NCBI GenBank assembly: GCA_003520425.1
Contig: DOUU01000314.1
Coordinates: 386 to 10,931 of the forward strand
Direction of reading: 5' to 3'
DNA from: Deltaproteobacteria bacterium
GTDB taxonomy: Bacteria; Myxococcota_A; UBA9160
DNA: 10,546 bases
Below the pieces are notes generated by a model. That model was not told the DNA's origin, did not search any database, and saw only the letters and a program-made list of their open reading frames with translations. Positions 144-9,881 of this stretch are shown piece by piece. Within the stretch, counting starts at the first letter, position 1. Each line of letters opens with the position of its first letter. Position numbers and translations under genes: made by a program.

Positions 144-150
144 AAGGGAG
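144..150 (+). promoter_or_regulatory. Ribosome-binding site deciding the kdpC start
   Basis: AAGGGAG lies 8 bases before the ATG at 159. The reading frame is open from an ATG at 90, but the 23 extra residues that start would add overlap the kdpB tail, are hydrophilic and resemble no KdpC N-terminus. The Shine-Dalgarno match and the KdpC-like start MGKYFTKSL favour 159. Confidence 0.7.
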
Positions 151-158
151 AAAAGACG

Positions 159-1178
159 ATGGGGAAGTATTTTACGAAGAGTCTGTGGCTGCTGGGCTTC
201 GCCGTGGTGATCTGCTGCGGCGTGTACCCGGCGGTCTTGTGGGTGATCGGCCAGGTGTTCTTCAACGAGCAGGCGAACGGGAGCCTTTTGACGGGGCCGG
301 ACGGCAAGGTGGTGGGTTCGAAGCTCATCGCGCAGCCCTTCACGAAGGACGAGTACTTCCAGCCGCGTCCCTCGGCGGTGTCGTACGATGCGTCGGCTTC
401 GGGCCCCTCGAACCTCTCGGCCTCCAACTACCTGCTCCGCGACCGGGTGGCCAAGATCCTGGGTCCCATCGCGAAGTACGCCGATGGGCCGAAGGCGGGG
501 CAGCCCGTCGCGCCGGACGTCGAGGCCTGGTTCCAGAAGGACATGTATCAGGGTGCGCCTCACCTGGTCGCGCAGTGGGCGGATGCACACAACGCGGTGG
601 CGCAGGCCTGGGTGAGCGGCGATCCCCTGCATGGGGGGTACGTGGATGCCTGGATGAAGGAGCATCCGAACGAGGTGGCGCAGTGGATCAAGGACAACCC
701 CGGGACTCCGGAGCCGAAGAACACGGACCTGGCGGTCGTTTTCTTCGAGGACTTCTCGAAGAAGAATCCCGGCATGTTCCCTTCGGCCGTGGATGAGCCC
801 ACGGCAGACGGGAAGACCCAGAGCGTGATCAAGCCGGTGAAAGAGGGCGCGGACATCCAGTCCACCTTCTTCGACATGTGGCGGACGGAGCATCCCGACG
901 TGGCGCTGCAGCAAGTCCCGGCGGACATGGTGATGGCGTCGGGCTCGGGACTCGATCCCCACATCTCGCTTGCCAACGCGACCTTCCAGCTCGAGCGCGT
1001 GGCGGGCAAGTGGGCGGACGATCTGCACCGCGATCCCGCCGACGTGCGCAAGGAGATCCAGCAGATCCTGGACCAGAACGTGTCCGCTCCCTGGGGAGGT
1101 CTCATCGGCGAGAAGTATGTGAACGTCCTCGAGCTCAACCTCGAGCTCCGCAAGCGCTTCGGCGCCCCCCCGGCGTAA
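159..1178 (+). CDS. kdpC: Potassium-transporting ATPase subunit C, enlarged form with central insert
   Basis: KdpC is the single-span accessory subunit of the KdpFABC K+ pump; it has a large periplasmic part and stabilises the complex. The 339-residue product has an N-terminal membrane helix (about residues 8-34, with YPAVLWVIGQVFF). The first half of the KdpC core follows (QANGSLL at 39-44, GSKLIAQPF at 53-61, YFQPRPSA at 66-73, YDASASGPSNL at 76-86, NYLLRDRV at 90-97). The second half lies near the C-terminus (VPADMVMASGSGLDPHIS at 253-270, then A-rich FQLERVA, and GGLIGE..VNVLELNLELRKRF at 313-334). Residues about 107-252 interrupt this core. They are hydrophilic, rich in W, H and P, and carry a recurring W...HP..VA.W pattern. 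Without the insert the protein is about 193 aa, close to the roughly 190 aa of E. coli KdpC. The start at 159 is supported by its ribosome-binding site. It is probably co-transcribed with kdpB. The identity is secure; the role of the insert is unknown. Confidence 0.95.
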   Translation: MGKYFTKSLWLLGFAVVICCGVYPAVLWVIGQVFFNEQANGSLLTGPDGKVVGSKLIAQPFTKDEYFQPRPSAVSYDASASGPSNLSASNYLLRDRVAKILGPIAKYADGPKAGQPVAPDVEAWFQKDMYQGAPHLVAQWADAHNAVAQAWVSGDPLHGGYVDAWMKEHPNEVAQWIKDNPGTPEPKNTDLAVVFFEDFSKKNPGMFPSAVDEPTADGKTQSVIKPVKEGADIQSTFFDMWRTEHPDVALQQVPADMVMASGSGLDPHISLANATFQLERVAGKWADDLHRDPADVRKEIQQILDQNVSAPWGGLIGEKYVNVLELNLELRKRFGAPPA

Positions 1179-1352: not shown

Positions 1353-2687
1353 ATGGCAAAGCTCCTCGTCGTAGATGACGACAAGAACATCCGGCGGGTC
1401 TTGTCCACCTTCCTCGAGTCCTGTGGCCATGAAGTTCGGCAGGTCCCAGACGCTGCCAGCGCCCTCGCTGCGCTCTCCAAAGAGCCCGACATCGCCCTTG
1501 TCCTCACCGACTATCGAATGGCGGAGATGAACGGGCTTGAACTCCTGGAGCAGATCAGGCAGCAGCATCCCGACACGCTTGTGATTCTCATGACGGCCTA
1601 TGCCACGGTCGAATCGGCCGTCGCCATCATCAAAGCCGGCGCCTACGACTATCTGACGAAGCCCTTCTCGCTGGACCGGGTGAGACAGGCGGTGGAACGG
1701 GCGCTCGAGGTCGGGAACCTCCGTGTCGAAAATCGCGCGCTTCGAGACGTCGTGCATGATCTGCCCCTCACCGAGTCTCGCAGCAGCGCGATGCAGGCTG
1801 TGCTTCGGACCGCGCGCCAGGCGGCGCAGAGCGATGCGACGGTCATCCTCTTGGGCGAGAGCGGGGCAGGGAAAAACGTTCTCGCGCGTCAGATTCATGA
1901 ATGGAGCCCCCGCCGCGATCGGCCCTTCGTGGTGGTGAACTGCACCACGCTGTCGGACCAGCTGCTCGAGAGCGAGCTGTTTGGGCACGTGCGAGGAGCC
2001 TTCACGGGAGCGATCAAGAACAAGCCCGGCCGCCTGGAAGCGGCCGCGGGGGGCACCGTCTTCCTGGATGAGATCGCCGATCTTTCCCCCACCTTGCAAA
2101 CCAAGCTGCTTCGTTTTCTGCAAGAGCGGCAGTTCGAGCGGGTCGGCGGTGACGAGACCATCGAGATCGACGCGCGAATCATCGCCGCGTCCAATCGCGA
2201 TCTTGAGCGCGAGGTGGCAGCCGGACATTTCCGGGAGGATCTCTTCTACCGGCTCAACGTGATCTCCCTTCGGGTTCCCGCTCTGCGCGAGCGACCCGAG
2301 GACATCCGCCCGCTGGTCGAGCATTTCCTCACTGCGGCCGCGCTCCGGAACCGCCGCCAGGAGCTGCGGTTTTCGCCTGAAGCGATGGACGCACTCTGCG
2401 CGTACCAATGGCCCGGGAATATCCGGGAGCTCCGCAATGCCATCGAACGCGCGGTGGTGCTCAATCGAAGCGACGTCATCCCGAGAGAAGGTCTCCCGGA
2501 CCGGGTGTTCCAGACGCCGAGCCCGGCGCGCGCGCGGGCTCCGAGCGGGGGAACCCTGGAGGACCTGGAGCGAGAACACATCCGGCGCGTGCTGGCAGAA
2601 GCCGTAACCCTCGAAGAAGCGGCGGAGACCCTCGGCATCAGCACGACCACGCTCTGGCGCAAAAGGAAGCGGTACTCGATCGAGTGA
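1353..2687 (+). CDS. Sigma-54-dependent response regulator (AlgB-like NtrC family), possible kdp regulator
   Basis: A 444-aa bacterial enhancer-binding protein with the full three-domain layout. The receiver domain (1-120) has acidic residues D8-D10, phospho-acceptor D53 (LTDYRM), T81 and K103. The AAA+ domain (about 138-375) has Walker A GESGAGKN at 168-175, the sigma-54-contacting GAFTG at 215-219, Walker B GTVFLDEI at 234-241, the arginine-rich FREDLFYRLNV at 293-303 and WPGNIREL at 353-360. A C-terminal Fis-type helix-turn-helix (about 405-440, LEEAAETLGISTTTLWRKRK) binds DNA. Once phosphorylated it would activate sigma-54 promoters. The central domain reads most like AlgB-type regulators (VLARQIHEWSPR, ELFGHVRGAFTG). 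The start has a purine-rich GGGAGGGG about 9 bp upstream. It lies 174 bp after kdpC on the same strand, so kdp control is plausible, replacing the usual KdpE. Its sensor kinase is not adjacent in the window, so the target and signal are inferred from position only. Confidence 0.93.
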   Translation: MAKLLVVDDDKNIRRVLSTFLESCGHEVRQVPDAASALAALSKEPDIALVLTDYRMAEMNGLELLEQIRQQHPDTLVILMTAYATVESAVAIIKAGAYDYLTKPFSLDRVRQAVERALEVGNLRVENRALRDVVHDLPLTESRSSAMQAVLRTARQAAQSDATVILLGESGAGKNVLARQIHEWSPRRDRPFVVVNCTTLSDQLLESELFGHVRGAFTGAIKNKPGRLEAAAGGTVFLDEIADLSPTLQTKLLRFLQERQFERVGGDETIEIDARIIAASNRDLEREVAAGHFREDLFYRLNVISLRVPALRERPEDIRPLVEHFLTAAALRNRRQELRFSPEAMDALCAYQWPGNIRELRNAIERAVVLNRSDVIPREGLPDRVFQTPSPARARAPSGGTLEDLEREHIRRVLAEAVTLEEAAETLGISTTTLWRKRKRYSIE

Positions 2688-3021: not shown

Positions 3022-4350
3022 TTGACCGTCTTCCAGCGCCTGCGCATCCGGTCCCGTGCGGCCATGTATTCGCTGCGCGGCGGATTTCTCGTACGCCCCT
3101 TTCTCATCGCGGCGTTCCTAGGATTCTCGGGCGCGGTGCTCTCGGCAAAGGAGGAGTCCACCCCCGCCCTGAGCGCCTGGATCCCCGCAGCTCTCTTCCC
3201 ATCGCGCCAAGACCCTCAGGTGGCCCAGGTGATTCTTGGCGGGATCGCCGCCTCCACCATGACCGTCGTCTCGATCGTCTTCGCCATCCTGCTCATGACC
3301 CTCACCCTCGCTTCCACGCAGTTCTCGCCGAGGATCCTGATCAGCTTTGTGAGGGACCGGACCACGCAGTGGACGCTGGGAATCTTCTTGGGGACGTTCT
3401 CCTATTGTATGGCGGCACTGCCCGCCGCGCGGTCCTTGCCCCACCCCTTCCTCCCAGCCGCAACCGTGACGGGCGCGATGCTGCTCGCGGTGGTCTGCGT
3501 GGGCTGGCTCATCTTCTTCATCAACCACATCTCCCAGGCGATCAGCGTGAACCACATCGTGGACCGCATCGCACGGGAGACGGAGTGGGTGATGGATGAG
3601 TTTGTGCCTCATCCACGCGAGTATTCCCAGCTCGAGATGACAGACATGGAGCCCGCTGGGACAGAGGCCTCGATCTTGAGCCGGGTCTCCGGCTACATCC
3701 GGTTCGTCGACGTGGATCGTCTTCTCGGGCTTGCAAGAATGCACCACGTCCGCGTTCGCGTGGAGCGCCGCGTCGGCCACTACGTTCCGGAAGGCATCCC
3801 CCTCATGTCGGTCGCGCGCGGCGAACGCGTCACGGAGGATCTTGCGCTCGAGCTCCTTGCTGCATTCGACATCGGCCCCACGCGCACGCTGCAACAGGAC
3901 GTCGAGTTCGGCGTGATCCAGATCGTCGACATCGCGCTTCGAGCGATCTCTCCTGCGGTGAATGATCCCAGTACAGCCATCAGCTGCGTCGATCAGCTGA
4001 GCCGCGTCCTGATCCGCTGGGTGAACCGCGCGCCGCCGCGCTCGCATCTCTACTCGCCGCCGCATGTCCTGCGCGTTGTTTTGCCCTGGATCACCCTGGA
4101 CGAGCTTCTCGACACCGCCTTCGAGCAAATCCGCCACTATTCCGCAAGCGACGTGGCGGTCAGCCTGAGATTGCTCCGGGCATTCGGGGATATCGCCCGG
4201 ACGGCTGCGGACGCGGCTTTGCAAGCCGCGCTCTTGGCCCGGGCCCGTCGCGTGGTGGGTGGATGCACGGGTCGACTTGCGGAAGATGAGCTTGCCAAGT
4301 TGCGGCAGCGTCTTTTCGCTCTCGAGTCGGCGATCGGGGCCGAAGCATGA
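3022..4350 (+). CDS. DUF2254 family membrane protein
   Basis: A 442-aa protein with four predicted transmembrane segments in its first third (about residues 23-41, 70-97, 117-134 and 144-167) and a long soluble C-terminal part. The membrane part holds S-I-V-F-A-I-L..T-L-T-L-A-S-TQFSPR (84-104) and FVRDRTTQWTLGIFLGTF (109-126). The C-terminal part has FGVIQIVDIALRAISPAVND (a family hallmark), then PSTA and a conserved Cys. Both regions are typical of DUF2254. The family is widespread, and I know of no established biochemical role. The TTG start at 3022 is preceded closely by AAGAAGAGG and gives the Arg-rich N-terminus usual before the first helix. An ATG at 3064 is the alternative and would drop 14 residues. 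The gene converges on the E2 gene, with only 26 bp between their stops. Family assignment is firm; the start is moderately certain. Confidence 0.87.
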   Translation: MTVFQRLRIRSRAAMYSLRGGFLVRPFLIAAFLGFSGAVLSAKEESTPALSAWIPAALFPSRQDPQVAQVILGGIAASTMTVVSIVFAILLMTLTLASTQFSPRILISFVRDRTTQWTLGIFLGTFSYCMAALPAARSLPHPFLPAATVTGAMLLAVVCVGWLIFFINHISQAISVNHIVDRIARETEWVMDEFVPHPREYSQLEMTDMEPAGTEASILSRVSGYIRFVDVDRLLGLARMHHVRVRVERRVGHYVPEGIPLMSVARGERVTEDLALELLAAFDIGPTRTLQQDVEFGVIQIVDIALRAISPAVNDPSTAISCVDQLSRVLIRWVNRAPPRSHLYSPPHVLRVVLPWITLDELLDTAFEQIRHYSASDVAVSLRLLRAFGDIARTAADAALQAALLARARRVVGGCTGRLAEDELAKLRQRLFALESAIGAEA

Positions 4351-4376: not shown

Positions 4377-5681
4377 TTAGAGGACCAGCGACAGGGGATC
4401 CTCGAGCCCGCACCGGAGCGCCGTGAGGAGCTCGGCGCCGGTGGCGGCGTCGAGAGCGCGGTGATCGGCGGAGAGGGTGCAGGTGATCATCGTGCGCACC
4501 GCCACCGCGCCGTCGCGAGCCACCGGACGAGGCTCCGCCGCGCCCACGCCAAGAATGCAGCTCTGCGGCGGATTTGGGATCGGAAGAAGGCTTTGGATCC
4601 CATAGCTGCCGAGGTTCGAGACCGTGAGGCTCCCGCCCTGGTACTCCTCCGGTCGAAGCCTGCGTGCCCTCGCGCGTTCGCTGAGATCCCGCAGTTCACG
4701 GCTTAGATCCACCAGACGCTTGCGATCGGCGTCACGCACGATCGGTGTCACGAGTCCCGCATCGGTGGCCACGGCGACCGCCACATCGACCCGATCGTAG
4801 AACCGCAGCGCCTCCTCCGTAAAAGAGACGTTGGCATCGGGCACGCGACGCAGGGCCAGAGCGGCGGCGCGGATCACGAAGTCGTTCACGCTGAAGCGGG
4901 GCTCGCCCTCGCGGAGGCGCGTATTGAGCTCCTCGCGAAGGGCGAGCAGGCCATCGAGTTCGCAGTCCGCGGTCAGGTAGAAATGGGGGAGGCTGCGTTT
5001 GGACTCTGCGAGCCGCGCGGCTTGCGTGCGCCGGGCCGTGGCGTGGCGGAGCTCATGAAACGGGGCTTCGGCGGGGAGCTCCTGGGCGTGCTGCGCCGCG
5101 GAATCGTCTTGGCCGCGCACCCTCGCGAAACGCGAGAGCACGGGAGGGAGCTCGGTCTTAGGAGGAGCGCGTCTCGCCTCGGGGGCGAGAGGGCCCGGGG
5201 GCCGCATCCCTCGCGCTGCCTCGATGTCGCATTTCAGGATGCGCCCCCCGGCGCCGCTACCCCGGATCGAGGCGAGCGGGATGCCATCCTGCTCGGCCAT
5301 GCGCCGCGCGAGGGGCGTCGCGTCGGCGACTCGCTCGGGAGCGGGCGCAGCCGAGAGGTCGGTGGACGCGGCCTGCGCCGGGCACCTAGCGCTCCTCGTC
5401 TCCCGAGCCGGAGGAGAACCATTGGTTGCGGAGGCTTCGCCAGGGCGTGCAAGCAGGGCAAGCAGGGCCCCCACGGGCACGCCCTCGGCACCCTCTTGCA
5501 CGAGGATTTCGAGGAGCGTCCCCTCGTCCGACGCCTCAAGCTCCGCCGCCGACTTGTCGGTCTCGATTTCCACGAGCACATCGCCGGGCTTCACCGCCTC
5601 GCCCGGGCGTTTTCGCCAGGCGAGGATGGTGGCCTCGTTGATCGAGGCGGAGAGCTCGGGGAGTCGGATTTCAATCGGCAT
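4377..5681 (-). CDS. 2-oxo acid dehydrogenase E2, dihydrolipoamide acyltransferase
   Basis: This E2 subunit (434 aa) transfers the acyl group formed by E1 from its swinging lipoyl arm to CoA. Order of parts: one lipoyl domain (1-78) with the lipoylated lysine K43 in ETDKS; an Ala/Pro-rich linker; a peripheral E3/E1-binding domain (about 121-155, TPLARRMAEQDGIPLASIRG, GRILK); a second linker; and the catalytic acyltransferase domain (about 208-434) with VTPIVRDAD, SNLGSYGIQSLLPIPNPPQ and the active-site stretch ADHRALD, giving H407 and D411. The usual DHRxxDG ends in Ala (A412) instead of Gly, a minor change that leaves the catalytic His and Asp. The ATG at 5681 has GGAG at 5689-5692, 7 bases away. 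A GTG at 5702 overlapping the E1 stop would add seven residues not typical of a lipoyl domain. It lies 17 bp after E1 in the same operon. The acyl substrate (acetyl or branched-chain) cannot be read from the sequence. Confidence 0.92.
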   Translation of the reverse strand: MPIEIRLPELSASINEATILAWRKRPGEAVKPGDVLVEIETDKSAAELEASDEGTLLEILVQEGAEGVPVGALLALLARPGEASATNGSPPARETRSARCPAQAASTDLSAAPAPERVADATPLARRMAEQDGIPLASIRGSGAGGRILKCDIEAARGMRPPGPLAPEARRAPPKTELPPVLSRFARVRGQDDSAAQHAQELPAEAPFHELRHATARRTQAARLAESKRSLPHFYLTADCELDGLLALREELNTRLREGEPRFSVNDFVIRAAALALRRVPDANVSFTEEALRFYDRVDVAVAVATDAGLVTPIVRDADRKRLVDLSRELRDLSERARARRLRPEEYQGGSLTVSNLGSYGIQSLLPIPNPPQSCILGVGAAEPRPVARDGAVAVRTMITCTLSADHRALDAATGAELLTALRCGLEDPLSLVL

Positions 5682-5688
5682 ACCGCTT

Positions 5689-5692
5689 CTCC
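5689..5692 (-). promoter_or_regulatory. Ribosome-binding site deciding the E2 start
   Basis: GGAG on the minus strand lies 7 bases before the ATG at 5681, within the short gap after the E1 stop. It favours the start MPIEIRLPEL, a standard lipoyl-domain beginning, over the GTG at 5702. Confidence 0.65.
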
Positions 5693-5698
5693 AAAGGC

Positions 5699-8035
5699 TC
5701 ACGCCCGCCGGTCAAGGCACGCGCGAGCGACTGCCCCGAGGATCGCGTCGGCCGAGAGGCCGTACGCTCGGTAGAGATCTGGGACGTCTCCAGACTGGCC
5801 GAACCGTTCGACACCAAGCGACACGACGCGGTGTCCGGACACCGCACCCAACCATGACAACGCCGCAGGGTGGCCGTCCAGCACCGTCACGAGAGCGGCG
5901 TCCCGGGCGAGGGGGGCGAGCAGGGCCTCGACCGGCGCGTGCACCTTGGCGTCGCCCGACGCCCGCGCGCTCTGGGCCGCGCGCCAGCCCGCGTGGAGGC
6001 GATCGGCAGAGGTCACGGCGAGGAGCCCGGCGCCGCGGGCGTCCTCCCGCAGCGCTGCAAAGGCCTCCTGGACTTCGGGCGCCACGACGCCGGCGTAGGC
6101 GAGTGCCAGCTCGGCCCCAGGCTCGGGCGGCACCATCCAATAGCCTCCCTCCACGATCCCGCGCCGCAGCTCCGGCCCAAGGGAGCGATCGGGCTGAAGG
6201 AGAGGACGCGTCGAGAGCCGCAGGTAGACCGATCCACCGTTTTCGTCCTGCAGGTATTCCAGCGCAAAGCGCACAATCTCTGCGAGCTCGTCTTGGAAGG
6301 CGGGCTCGTACGCCACCAAGCCTGGCTGGCCGATCCCGATGAGCGGAGCCGACACGGACTGGTGTGCGCCGCCTTCGGGCGCGAGCGTAATGCCAGAGGG
6401 CGTTGCCACGAGGAGAAAGCGCGCATCCTGGTCGCAGGCGTAGTTGAGCGCATCGAGGGCGCGCGCGATGAAGGGATCGGAGAGGGTGCCCACGGGAAGG
6501 AGGCGGACTCCGAACAGGGGTCCGGCGAGGCCCAAGGCCGCCAGCAAGAGGAAGAGATTGTTCTCGGCGATGCCGAGCTCGATGTGCTGGCCCTCGGGAG
6601 AGGTTTCCCACTTCTGCGCCGATACAACCTCCTGCAGGCGGAAGACATTCGCTTTTCGCCGGCGGTCAAACACCCCGCGCCGGTTCACCCAGGCGCCGAG
6701 GTGGGTCGAGACCCCGACCTCGGGGGAAGCGGTCACGATGCGCTCGGAGAGCGCGCATCCGCCGCGGGCCAGGTGCTCCAGGAGGTGACCGAAGCCCTCT
6801 TGGGTCGAGAGCTTGGAGCCGCTGGGAACCGGGAGCGGGTCGGGAACCGGAAGTCGCGGCGGGCGGTGGCAGCGCTCGACGGGCTGTGCGAAGGGGACCG
6901 CGCCGAGGAACTCCCGCAGCTCGTCCTCGGGCACGTCCAGCCCTTCGAAGAGCTCCCATTCTCGACCGGTCTCGATGCCCTGCGACTTGCGGAAGAGTTC
7001 CATCTGCTCGAGGCTCATGAGGCCCGCGTGGTTGTCCTTGTGGCCGGCGAAGGGAAGGCCATAGCCCTTGATGGTGTAGGCGAGAAAGCAGGTGGGACGG
7101 TCGCCGCGGACCCCGTGAAAGGCCTCGAGCACGGTCTCGAGGTCGTGACCGCCAAGATTCGTCATAAGGCCGTGCAGCGCGGGATCGTCGTGCTCCTCCA
7201 GCAGCTCGCGCACGCCAGCGACATCGCCAAGATCGCGCAAGAGGTGCTCGCGCCAGCCCGCTCCGCCCTTGTAGACGAGGGCGGAGTAGAGGGAGTTCGG
7301 GCACTCGTCGATCCACTGCCGAAGGGCATCGCCCCCCCGCCGCTCGAATGCCGCCTCAAGACGCCTGCCATACTTGAGGACGTTGACGTCCCAACCCATG
7401 TCACGAAAGAGCGTGTCGATCTGAAGCGCGAGGCGGTCCTCCATCACGCGATCGAGGTTCTGCCGGTTGTGGTCGATCACCCACCACACATTGCGTACGT
7501 CGTGCTTCCAGCCCTCGAGCAGGGCCTCGAAGACGTTTCCCCTCTCGAGCTCCGCGTCCCCTACAAGGGCCACCATGCGCCCGGGCGCCACGTCGGTCGG
7601 GACCAGCTTCTTCGTGCGCAGGTAGTCTTGGACGAGCGCCGCGAACAGTGTCAGCGCGACGCCGAGCCCCATGGAACCCGTCGAGAAGTCGACATCGTCG
7701 CCATCCTTGGTGCGAGACGGGTAGGACTGCGCGCCACCCAACGCGCGGAAACGCTGAAGTGCGTCGCGGGTCTGCCGACCGAGGAGGAATTGAATGGCGT
7801 GGAAGACAGGGCTTGCGTGCGGCTTCACGGCGACGCGGTCCTGCGGCCGCAGGACGTCGAGATAGAGCGCGGTCATCAGCGTCACCACCGAGGCGCAGGC
7901 AGCCTGGTGGCCGCCGACCTCGAGGCCGTCCCGCCGTTCCCGAAGGTGGTTGGCGTGGTGGATCGTGAACGAGGAGAGCCACAAGATCTTGCGCTCGAGG
8001 GCGCGCAGACAGGCGAGGTGGCGCTCCGCGTCCAT
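5699..8035 (-). CDS. Single-chain thiamine-diphosphate E1 of a 2-oxo acid dehydrogenase (AceE/transketolase-like)
   Basis: A 778-aa homodimeric-type E1 that would decarboxylate a 2-oxo acid (pyruvate is the likeliest) on thiamine diphosphate and reductively acylate the E2 lipoyl group. The N-terminal ThDP-binding half has GGHQA (41-45), KPHASPVFHA (71-80), SYPSRTK, DFSTGSMGLGVA (116-127) and the cofactor/Mg motif starting GD at 159-160 and ending at N190 (IDHNRQ). Later comes AYTIKGYGLPFAGHKDNHAG (319-338). The pyrimidine-binding half holds the catalytic-type glutamate E491 in ELGIAENN, then ATPSGITLAPEGGAHQS (544-560). The last part (about 640-778) resembles the transketolase C-terminal domain, with VERFGQSG near the end. 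It is shorter than E. coli AceE (887 aa) and belongs to the group often annotated simply as transketolase. The ATG at 8035 has AGGAG only 2 bases upstream, closer than ideal, and no other in-frame start was found. It is first in an operon with E2; no E3 gene is present. Confidence 0.88.
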   Translation of the reverse strand: MDAERHLACLRALERKILWLSSFTIHHANHLRERRDGLEVGGHQAACASVVTLMTALYLDVLRPQDRVAVKPHASPVFHAIQFLLGRQTRDALQRFRALGGAQSYPSRTKDGDDVDFSTGSMGLGVALTLFAALVQDYLRTKKLVPTDVAPGRMVALVGDAELERGNVFEALLEGWKHDVRNVWWVIDHNRQNLDRVMEDRLALQIDTLFRDMGWDVNVLKYGRRLEAAFERRGGDALRQWIDECPNSLYSALVYKGGAGWREHLLRDLGDVAGVRELLEEHDDPALHGLMTNLGGHDLETVLEAFHGVRGDRPTCFLAYTIKGYGLPFAGHKDNHAGLMSLEQMELFRKSQGIETGREWELFEGLDVPEDELREFLGAVPFAQPVERCHRPPRLPVPDPLPVPSGSKLSTQEGFGHLLEHLARGGCALSERIVTASPEVGVSTHLGAWVNRRGVFDRRRKANVFRLQEVVSAQKWETSPEGQHIELGIAENNLFLLLAALGLAGPLFGVRLLPVGTLSDPFIARALDALNYACDQDARFLLVATPSGITLAPEGGAHQSVSAPLIGIGQPGLVAYEPAFQDELAEIVRFALEYLQDENGGSVYLRLSTRPLLQPDRSLGPELRRGIVEGGYWMVPPEPGAELALAYAGVVAPEVQEAFAALREDARGAGLLAVTSADRLHAGWRAAQSARASGDAKVHAPVEALLAPLARDAALVTVLDGHPAALSWLGAVSGHRVVSLGVERFGQSGDVPDLYRAYGLSADAILGAVARACLDRRA

Positions 8036-8068
8036 TGCTCCTGACCATATCGCGTGAGGCAGGGTGTA

Positions 8069-8087
8069 TCAGTGCGTAGCTCACTGA
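8069..8087. repeat. Inverted repeat in the E1 leader/promoter region
   Basis: TCAGTG and CACTGA form perfect 6-bp arms around a 7-base spacer, 34 bp upstream of the E1 start. On the plus strand it is followed by a run of five A. It could be an operator in the E1-E2 promoter or a hairpin in the 5' untranslated mRNA. No clear -35/-10 pair was found in the 100-bp gap to fix which. Confidence 0.4.
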
Positions 8088-8099
8088 AAAACCCACCCC

Positions 8100-8114
8100 C
8101 TGAGCAATATTCTG
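8100..8114 (-). promoter_or_regulatory. Possible Lrp-type binding site upstream of E1
   Basis: CAGAATATTGCTCAG on the minus strand matches the E. coli Lrp consensus YAGHAWATTWTDCTR at 12 of 15 positions by my count. It is the only AT-rich patch between E1 and the decayed Lrp-family gene, which is where a divergent Lrp regulator would bind. The consensus is degenerate and was defined in another organism, so this is suggestive only. Confidence 0.3.
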
Positions 8115-8143
8115 CGAAAGATCGTGTGAACTAAAGCTGAACT

Positions 8144-8563
8144 GTGGCTTCTCCTTCCCTTAACTCCATGACCGCCGCATCCTGCGCGAGCTCCAAGAGG
8201 GTGCCCGCATCTCGAATGCCGAGTTCTCGTGCAAGGTCGCGTTGTCCCCTTCGCCTTGCCTGCGTCGCGCGCGCTGGGAAGGGCGTGATCCGTCGCCGTG
8301 TGACGCTCCTCGACCCCGTGGCGATTCAGTGTTCGTGCAGATATGCCTCGAGCGGCAGGTGGTGGAGGCCCTCGAGCGGTTCGAAGAGATGATCCTCGGA
8401 GGGCCCGAGGTGAGGGAGTGCGACCTCATAACGGGCGACGCGGATGGCCGATATTCCCGCTGACCAACGCTTCTGGATGGATCACCTGAAAAGGGTTCCG
8501 GGGTCCCGAGCATTCGCTCGAGCTTCGCGCTCCAGCAAGGGATACGGGACAGCCTCCCCTCGG
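8144..8563 (+). pseudogene. Decayed Lrp/AsnC-family transcriptional regulator
   Basis: Read piecewise across two plus-strand frames, almost an entire Lrp/AsnC regulator can be recovered. In order: a start GTG GCT TCT (8144) reading ASPSLNS; HDRRILRELQEGARISNAEF through LSPSPCLRRAR (8167-8275, the N-terminal helix-turn-helix); GVIRRRVTLLDPVAIQ (8282-8329); SVFVQICLERQ, ALERFEEMILGGPEVRECD and LITGDADG (8326-8445, the ligand-binding RAM domain); MADIPADQRFWMDHLKRVPG (8444-8503); VPSIRSSFALQQ (8503-8538); KGYGTASP (8537-8560). These are the hallmarks of the family in the right order. Switches near 8166, 8275, 8326, 8444, 8502 and 8537 alternate between the two frames. In-frame stops include TAA 8161-8163 and TGA at the end of the DADGRYSR segment. 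Family members are about 150-160 aa; the remnant spans about 140 codons, so a few codons are also lost. It diverges from the E1-E2 operon, the usual place for the regulator of such operons (as BkdR for bkd). It is almost certainly non-functional unless the indels are assembly errors. Confidence 0.88.
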
Positions 8564-8603
8564 TCTCGATTCGCCCAAGGCCGCAGCGGAGGGACTGCAG
8601 CGC

Positions 8604-8642
8604 AGCTCGGGGGCTGCATCCCCATCTCAGCTTTCCCGAGCT
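8604..8642 (+). repeat. Extended inverted repeat upstream of the sigma-54 promoter
   Basis: AGCTCGGG (8604-8611) and CCCGAGCT (8635-8642) are perfect 8-bp arms. Inside them GCTG (8613-8616) and CAGC (8628-8631) add a second paired block around an 11-base loop. Its centre is about 75 bp before the predicted transcription start of the kinase gene, a distance at which NtrC-type activators bind. It might instead be an old terminator for the decayed Lrp-family gene, but no T-run follows. The pairing is seen; the role is inferred. Confidence 0.45.
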
Positions 8643-8671
8643 AAGTCTGCGGAATTGCTCGCGCAGCCCAC

Positions 8672-8687
8672 TGGCATGGGGCTTGCT
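8672..8687 (+). promoter_or_regulatory. Sigma-54 (RpoN) promoter for the kinase/regulator operon
   Basis: TGGCATGGGGCTTGCT matches the -24/-12 consensus TGGCACG-N4-TTGCW at every position but one. It has the invariant GG at 8673-8674 and GC at 8685-8686, separated by exactly 10 bases. Transcription would begin near 8698, leaving about 80 bases of leader before the kinase GTG. The gene pair downstream encodes an NtrC-type activator, which fits a sigma-54 promoter and suggests autoregulation. Confidence 0.75.
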
Positions 8688-8765
8688 CTCTCCCGGCTCA
8701 TGAGAAGATGTCTGGGACCCACCCGCTTTGCCCTCCATACTGGAGCCGCCCTCCAAGGAAGCGAC

Positions 8766-8770
8766 GGAGG
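8766..8770 (+). promoter_or_regulatory. Ribosome-binding site deciding the kinase start
   Basis: GGAGG lies 7 bases before a GTG at 8778. Starts further upstream in the same open frame (TTG 8655, ATG 8676) lie on or before the sigma-54 promoter and could not be on its transcript. ATG 8700 would be almost at the 5' end, with no Shine-Dalgarno sequence. Confidence 0.75.
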
Positions 8771-8777
8771 CACTGCC

Positions 8778-9881
8778 GTGCGAGATCACCGCTGGGAGCG
8801 CGAATGGCACGACGACGGGCGCCGCATGCGGGTCCGCGCTCGCGGGCGCAGCGGGCCCGAGCGCGAGGCGAGAGAGTTCACGCCCGAGGAGGAGGCCTAC
8901 GCCGAGGCCCAGCGCCTTGCGAACCGAAAGGTCGGGTTCGTTTCGCACCTCGTGCCTTACCTTGCGACCTGCACCTTTCTCCTGCTCGTCGCGCCCCGCG
9001 CGGCGATGATCGTGGCCATGGCCTGGGGAATCGGTGTCGCCTGCCACTGGTTCGGAGTTGTCGCGCCGACGCTCCGCAAGCGCTGGATCGATCAAGAAGT
9101 CGATCGGCGTCTAAACCGCACCGTGTCCAAGGAACGGCGCGTTCTCGAAGGTCAGCATGCGCGCTCGCTCGAGGAGCTCTCTGCCTCCATCGCCCACGAG
9201 ATTCGAAATCCGATCACGGCGGCCAAGAGCCTCGTGCAGCAGATGGGCGAGGACCCCGCCTCCCAGGAGAATGTCGAGTACGCACGGGTTGCGCTCGAGG
9301 AACTCGACCGGGTCGAGCGCTCGATCTCCCACCTGCTCAAGTTCGCAAGGGAAGAGGCGCTGCGCCTGGCCGACGTGCGCATTTCCGACGTCCTCGATTC
9401 CGCCCTCGAGAGCTTTCGTGACCGGATTGCGCGTTCGGGCGTGAAGGTGGAACGCTCGTTCGACGACCGGGGCACACTGCGAGGGGATCCGGAGAAACTG
9501 CGTCGGGTCGCCTTGAATCTCATCGGCAATGCCCTCGACGCGCTCGAGCAAGGGGGCACGCGTGCGCCTGCGCTCGAGGTTGCAACGGGTGAGAATCTCG
9601 CGTCCACAGAGGTCTGGGCGCGGATTCGCGACAACGGTCCCGGCATGGACCGGGAGGCGCTCAGCAAGATCTTCCGGCCCTTCTACACCTCAAAGCCCGA
9701 AGGCACAGGGCTCGGCCTCGCCATCACCAAGAAGCTCGTCGAGGCCCACGGCGGAACGATCGAGGCGCAGTCGGCGCCCGGGGCGGGGACCGAGTTCGTC
9801 GTCGCCCTGCCGAAGGCGGGTCCAGACGCCTCCGCGGATCCCTCCGCCCGCAGCGCAGCGCAAGGGGGAGGGGCGGCGTGA
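8778..9881 (+). CDS. Membrane-anchored sensor histidine kinase with 2TM domain
   Basis: A 367-aa kinase starting at GTG 8778. After a charged N-terminus, residues about 46-96 form a two-helix membrane module ([13 protein letters not shown], then [13 protein letters not shown]) that resembles the 2TM domain family (Pfam 2TM). There is no sizeable periplasmic sensor domain between the helices. The DHp domain follows a coiled segment and has the phospho-accepting H140 in [10 protein letters not shown]. The ATP-binding domain shows the N box [10 protein letters not shown] (248-257), G1 DNGPGM (285-290), F box FRPFYTSK (299-306) and G2 GTGLGLAI (309-316), so it looks catalytically complete. The tail after residue 345 is low-complexity Ala/Pro/Gly. 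Its stop overlaps the start of the next regulator by four bases (GTGA), so the two are translationally coupled and probably partners. A sigma-54 promoter sits 90 bp upstream. The signal sensed is unknown; with so little outside the membrane it probably senses a membrane or cytoplasmic cue. Confidence 0.92.

Follow-up and report, generated by a model that had tools for sequence, protein, structure and literature searches.

What has become of the stretch that diverges from a pair of 2-oxo acid dehydrogenase genes in this locus, and did it once control them? The window, i.e. the whole stretch of 10,546 nucleotides that was analysed, derives from contig C391 of a draft assembly (512 contigs, 81% complete). 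Gene names were assigned from Pfam and NCBIfam matches, and the following features were distinguished:

147–1178 (+): KdpC; Pfam/NCBIfam match
1353–2687 (+): NtrC-type regulator; Pfam/NCBIfam match
3022–4350 (+): DUF2254 membrane protein; Pfam/NCBIfam match
4377–5702 (−): E2, dihydrolipoamide acyltransferase, 441 aa; open frame with Pfam domains
5699–8035 (−): E1, single-chain AceE-like thiamine-diphosphate dehydrogenase, 778 aa; open frame
8036–8143: intergenic stretch from the E1 start to the GTG of the remnant, 0.50 GC
8112–8118 (−): TTCGCAG, a possible eroded CGCAA element, one change from TTCGCAA
8144–8576 (+): full-length remnant, almost certainly an Lrp/AsnC pseudogene; HMM and frameshift-aware alignment
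8655–9881 (+): histidine kinase, its true start probably further in; context, outside the module
from 9878 (+): second NtrC-type regulator, running off the window end; context, outside the module

When positions 8080–8620 were read in the plus-strand frames, the helix-turn-helix (HTH), RAM and C-terminal signatures of an Lrp/AsnC regulator followed one another, as the sequence-only reading had described, and an Lrp HMM matched the stop-to-stop frame 8164–8460 in two pieces (E=1.4e-23). This HMM was built from 120 intact homologues retrieved with the joined translated pieces of the remnant itself, which makes the match somewhat circular. The HTH and RAM pieces, queried separately with tblastn, each matched Lrp genes adjoining E1 in other genomes. 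A frameshift-aware alignment of the remnant to a profile based on 13 intact proteins, of which the homologue search supplied four and loci fetched with E1 the other nine, covered profile columns 12–156 of 162 with a score of 280.5, as compared to a mean of 27.0 and a maximum of 40.8 for dinucleotide shuffles (n=30) and 27.8 for the minus strand; the Lrp/AsnC match expected from a search of this kind was thus obtained. Residues 1–160 of the closest intact homologue (P0001, 160 aa) aligned to the stretch from the GTG at 8144 through 8569, with 108 of 139 residues identical (78%, over frameshift-aligned residues), and in the homologue search the same protein gave 66% identity over 93% of the joined remnant query. 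An N-terminal HTH and a C-terminal RAM domain are hence found in order along the ~160-aa length of the homologues, while six clear frame changes leave no single open frame from start to stop and are disabling relative to intact homologues. We conclude that 8144 to about 8576 (+) is almost certainly an end-to-end Lrp/AsnC pseudogene. The span originally proposed, 8144..8563, is correct in its GTG start and slightly short at its end, which falls at 8569 (P0001), 8576 (P0003) or 8587 (P0002) depending on the protein aligned. The assignment to two plus-strand frames likewise holds for the body of the remnant, the last codons possibly using a third.

The six clear frame changes have net effects of about −1, −8, −13, −20, −1 and −2 nt, and the C-terminus shows an in-frame 9-nt gap when compared to P0001 or a seventh frame change (−2) when compared to P0003; five or six frameshifts plus small deletions had been counted earlier. 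As the first frame change occurs already after about nine codons, a working product is not expected. A gene caller would leave the region blank or give a false 82-aa frame, and it is such a listing of the GTG frame 8144–8392 that could lend credit to a functional short product, made either from this frame or by frameshifted translation of the whole remnant. However, the GTG frame follows the Lrp reading for only about nine codons and is mostly in the wrong frame, and the whole remnant could be translated only through six or seven separate frame changes, so that we regard both products as improbable to the point of being negligible.

The lesions could also be assembly or sequencing errors, the Lrp gene being intact in the organism. 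The draft state of the assembly, with its 512 contigs and 81% completeness, would allow for this, and indels also break two further genes of this assembly, one of them LPD-like and located on C368, a contig containing an N, the other a second DUF2254 copy on C117; the assembly may therefore hold more pseudogenes or errors than usual. Against this, six or seven lesions are concentrated within 0.43 kb, whereas all seven genes flanking the remnant have open frames, and genes met by chance elsewhere in the assembly are open as well (E1_dh on C114, C390 and C71, lipoamide dehydrogenase on C447 and AsnC on C30). Furthermore, 5 of 33 conserved columns are also altered by substitution, and base-calling errors do not typically produce lesions as long as about 8, 13 and 20 nt. 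Based on the seven open neighbours and the three lesions of 8–20 nt, sequencing error is unlikely, and we give an intact gene in the organism very little probability; the stretch is instead read as a genuinely decayed gene.

The decay had also been described as recent. The GC3 of the remnant is 0.797 over 128 codons (0.770 over 139 when the less certain C-terminal ones are included). Of 442 overlapping windows of equal size taken from the seven intact genes, a fraction of 0.425 does not exceed 0.797, and the intergenic DNA next to the remnant has 0.50 GC; as GC3 has not drifted, the decay looks young. On the other hand, 5 of the 33 highly conserved columns, the threshold being conservation in ≥95% of 97 intact homologues, are already altered; in leave-one-out comparisons of the intact proteins the median was 0 of 38, the worst case being 10 of 41. 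A recent origin is thus supported by base composition and tempered by the altered residues: constraint on the remnant looks relaxed with its base composition undrifted, as in a young pseudogene beyond its first lesions. In Salmonella, young pseudogenes are described as being removed by deletion (PMC2916853). The remnant is similar to these as a disrupted gene losing DNA through deletions, but it is known from one genome whereas that study compared several.

As previously stated, the remnant diverges from intact E1 and E2 genes; both frames are open, and E2 overlaps the 3′ end of E1 by 4 bases. E2 exceeds the Pfam cut-offs for the catalytic (PF00198), lipoyl (PF00364) and E3-binding (PF02817) domains and scored 386.4 bits against the NCBIfam equivalog TIGR01349, under the cut-off of 445. 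E1 scored 164.6 bits against TIGR00759 (AceE, homodimeric pyruvate dehydrogenase E1), where the cut-off of 859.9 was not reached; as judged by alignment only, it would work like an AceE-type E1. Both enzymes are full length with the expected domains and normal GC3, a lipoamide dehydrogenase gene is present in the assembly (C447), and the enzymes look usable. The whole E1-E2-Lrp module could nevertheless be dying or silent, with the Lrp as its first visible casualty and the enzymes unused: other 2-oxo acid dehydrogenase E1 genes are found elsewhere in the genome and may make the module redundant, G001 and G002 of the same family are without it, and losing the Lrp should silence the operon if the Lrp was an activator. 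In contrast, E1 and E2 are open and of normal length and GC3, and E1 is kept without a divergent Lrp in 44 of the 80 relatives' loci described below (best 80 of 524), showing that E1 can persist without it. We therefore find a dying module unlikely, and there is a reasonable likelihood that E1-E2 are still in use without the Lrp.

For comparison with relatives, genome contigs were scanned for E1, and the best 80 of 524 loci (62–72% identity) were analysed, mostly labelled Alphaproteobacteria, with some Acidobacteria and one Planctomycetaceae. An intact Lrp gene diverging from E1 at a distance of less than 450 bp was found in 36 of these best 80 of 524 loci, which shows an intact gene in the same divergent place in related loci and matches the BkdR-like arrangement, i.e. 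divergence from a dehydrogenase gene; 25 of the 36 form one clade (Reyranella and kin) and 11 are scattered. A laboratory strain carrying the intact pair is Reyranella aquatilis KCTC 52223 (L103). Two more of the best 80 of 524 have an Lrp elsewhere in the locus (L056, L061) and none was seen in 42; in three of the latter (L052, L099 and L104) the upstream DNA is scant or missing. E2 is a neighbour in only three of the best 80 of 524 (L039, L075, L080), with some contigs ending early. Within this set, the intact divergent Lrp in 36 loci makes it look like an old partner of E1, the rarity of an adjacent E2 indicates that E1 is the conserved partner, and the lack of an Lrp in about half of the loci indicates that the pairing is dispensable. 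No Lrp remnant was found upstream of 41 Lrp-less E1 loci, where the frameshift-aware score was at most 46.2; three of the 41 loci in this specificity control had less than 350 bp upstream. Clustering of neighbouring ORFs was noisy in this high-GC DNA, only its Lrp cluster matching the HMM result, and was not used.

In an E1 tree, which was constructed by a quick method and in which the window, L036, L075 and L079 were flagged as long branches, the window fell within a group of nine (support 97). Its sister (support 94) is L039, in which E2 is present and no Lrp was found in 350 bp upstream. L075 and L080, both Acidobacteriota in the same group, have an intact divergent Lrp as well as E2, and no Lrp gene was seen in its members L039, L036, L079, L102, L055 and L093. 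Among 147 genomes searched, E1 at 60% identity or more was found only in the window's genome and in G082, and neither G001 nor G002, of the same family, has it; such a patchy distribution suggests horizontal arrival, of which the base composition of the window genes shows no sign. The closest E1 proteins, P0121–P0123, are 86–87% identical and, like P0001, derive from metagenome contigs. In G082, the short E1 (L036, G082:C81) immediately follows a wax-ester synthase/DGAT gene, and its surroundings gave no match to Lrp or E2. A genome of the same order, G014, encodes an intact Lrp (60% identical to P0001) whose gene diverges from that of a long AceE-type E1 on one and the same contig; at this locus (L142, G014:C323) an Lrp of the remnant's type is paired with a long E1, not a short one.

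BkdR is described as the activator of the divergent bkd operon of Pseudomonas, probably stimulated by branched-chain amino acids (PMC8707732, PMC3480352), which bears out its earlier citation as a divergent regulator of a 2-oxo acid dehydrogenase operon. Both systems have an Lrp-type gene divergent from 2-oxo acid dehydrogenase genes, but BkdR is an intact activator while the window's Lrp is dead, and bkdA1-bkdA2-bkdB-lpdV encodes a two-subunit E1, unlike the single-chain, AceE-like E1 of the window (PMC8707732, PMC3480352); the parallel is one of arrangement only. MdeR from Pseudomonas putida is also named as a divergent local regulator (PMC8707732). It shares with the remnant its Lrp type, its divergent position and a presumed local role, perhaps also an AceE-like E1 as neighbour, and differs in being intact and methionine-responsive. 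The gene mdeB encodes an E1 homologue. By analogy, we infer that the remnant once worked like a local regulator of the BkdR/MdeR type, and it is likely that the Lrp was the former local regulator of E1. The best description, which we hold with good probability, is that the gene of a local Lrp/AsnC regulator has become a young pseudogene next to its divergent partner E1(-E2); the E1-E2 genes have probably lost their own switch.

A similar fate is known for oxyR of Mycobacterium tuberculosis, a multiply broken regulator pseudogene divergent from its intact target ahpC. The likeness lies in a regulator with several lesions diverging from an intact target, although oxyR is of the LysR type and belongs to another pathway. 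Among the publications listed for a broken divergent Lrp beside a dehydrogenase, or for general precedents, none was recognised as such a case, which leaves its absence in print unproven. The Lrp remnant is a clear and ordinary case of gene decay, a known kind of event and nothing new in kind. Loss of a local regulator beside intact targets is one route of bacterial regulatory rewiring that is usually visible only once the gene has gone, whereas here the remnant is still readable.

How the Lrp may have acted can be proposed from BkdR: its binding site, containing CGCAA, would have lain upstream of E1, and from there it would have tuned the transcription of E1-E2 to an amino or keto acid. Following its inactivation, short deletions would have accumulated in its gene and the binding element would have begun to erode, leaving E1-E2 without a local regulator and either constitutive, low, or under another factor. 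Regulation of E1-E2 by the Lrp is something that we infer by analogy. The search of the assembly contigs gave one further AsnC-type gene (C30, 33% identity to P0001). Neither a sigma-70-like promoter nor a terminator-like site was detected in 7950–8900, and the window gave no match to an RNA family (Rfam). A takeover of E1 by NtrC was considered and rejected, no −24/−12-like site being present upstream of E1 with up to two mismatches allowed. The sole −24/−12-like (sigma-54) match in the window has one mismatch (8672–8687, +) and is within chance, with 3.4 expected; it lies just upstream of the histidine kinase-NtrC pair.

Since the remnant is located upstream of this pair in the same direction, with no terminator-like site in 7950–8900, it might have been kept as an untranslated leader or regulatory DNA for the downstream genes. 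However, the pair was found in six relatives in fetched stretches without any E1, E2 or Lrp match, no RNA family was matched, and the site at 8672–8687, within chance as it is, could serve the pair separately; a retained leader is accordingly most improbable, and we keep to a decayed local regulator. Genes upstream of the histidine kinase are common only to G001 and G002 among the six relatives, and therefore no empty site could be reconstructed.

The DNA upstream of E1 was also compared. CGCAA occurs within 130 bp upstream of E1 in all 36 divergent-Lrp loci and in 9 of the 42 others (best 80 of 524; L056 and L061 placed among the 42, L052 and L104 too short), and in 499 of 3900 shuffled upstream sequences. 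Divided by group (best 80 of 524), it is present in 25/25 loci of the Reyranella clade, where the element reads ACGCAAG, and in 11/11 scattered loci. It is the best discriminator of 1024 5-mers (one-sided p=2.2e-6 for the 11 scattered loci vs the 42, about 0.002 after correction for 1024 tests) and the sole 5-mer found in at least 10 of the 11 scattered loci, the runner-up being CAACA (6/11 vs 0/42); the motif was chosen from the same data, and relatedness is only partly removed by separating one clade. Palindromes are found upstream of E1 in L075 and L080 (CGCAATATTATTGCG and CGCAACAATGTTGCG).

CGCAA is absent upstream of E1 in the window, as it is from the Lrp/E1 intergenic stretch of G014, where E1 is of the long type. 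The window instead has TTCGCAG, located 83 bases from E1; exact TTCGCAA is found in 6/36 loci with and 0/42 loci without the Lrp (best 80 of 524), at 85–117 bases from E1 in the former. When the DNA upstream of E1 in the window itself was shuffled 2000 times, a near-match of this type appeared in 143 cases, and TTCGCAG in the window alone is therefore only suggestive. The candidate binding site of the lost Lrp may be eroding. That regulator and operator decay together, CGCAA being a strict companion of the divergent Lrp while here the Lrp is dead, the element one change away and the enzymes intact, is a tentative proposal that we hold with more doubt than confidence. If true, the intact, decaying and Lrp-less loci would form a natural series of local regulator loss. 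Of all this, only the association of CGCAA with the Lrp might be new. The remnant, the intact loci of relatives, the Lrp-less relatives and the candidate binding element are available for comparison, and the element is amenable to bench work.

Two further operator searches were set aside. Palindromic operator models of width 14–17 were dominated by the Reyranella clade and placed the window far below known sites, with best window scores of 2.1–5.1 bits vs known-site medians of 15.9–18.1, ranking 11–20 of ~10,530 positions; they are hence unused as evidence. The pattern CGCAA-N5-TTGCG with up to three mismatches gave 66 matches in the window vs 54.9 expected, which is near chance.

Some minor observations were made in the same data. 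The LPD-like gene on C368 (L145, G000:C368; 1–1160) is spread over several frames of an N-containing contig and represents a pseudogene or poor sequence, while the second DUF2254 copy on C117 (L164, G000:C117; 5860–7164) consists of two pieces in differing frames, 77% and 89% identical to the window's gene, and is probably another pseudogene. The locus L101 (NZ_VCCH02000019.1) is titled Mycobacterium sp. KBS0706, but its E1 and that of Inquilinus limosus form a short-branched group (support 100), and the genome is probably mislabelled. Near-identical KdpC proteins (P0242 and P0243, on contigs of 6303 and 5609 bases) suggest that further assemblies of the window's species exist. The window's KdpC (147–1178) has 343 aa, with an insert of ~130 residues separating two conserved parts; as KdpC proteins of ~337–345 aa are common in databases (at least 120 matches), it represents a known long form.
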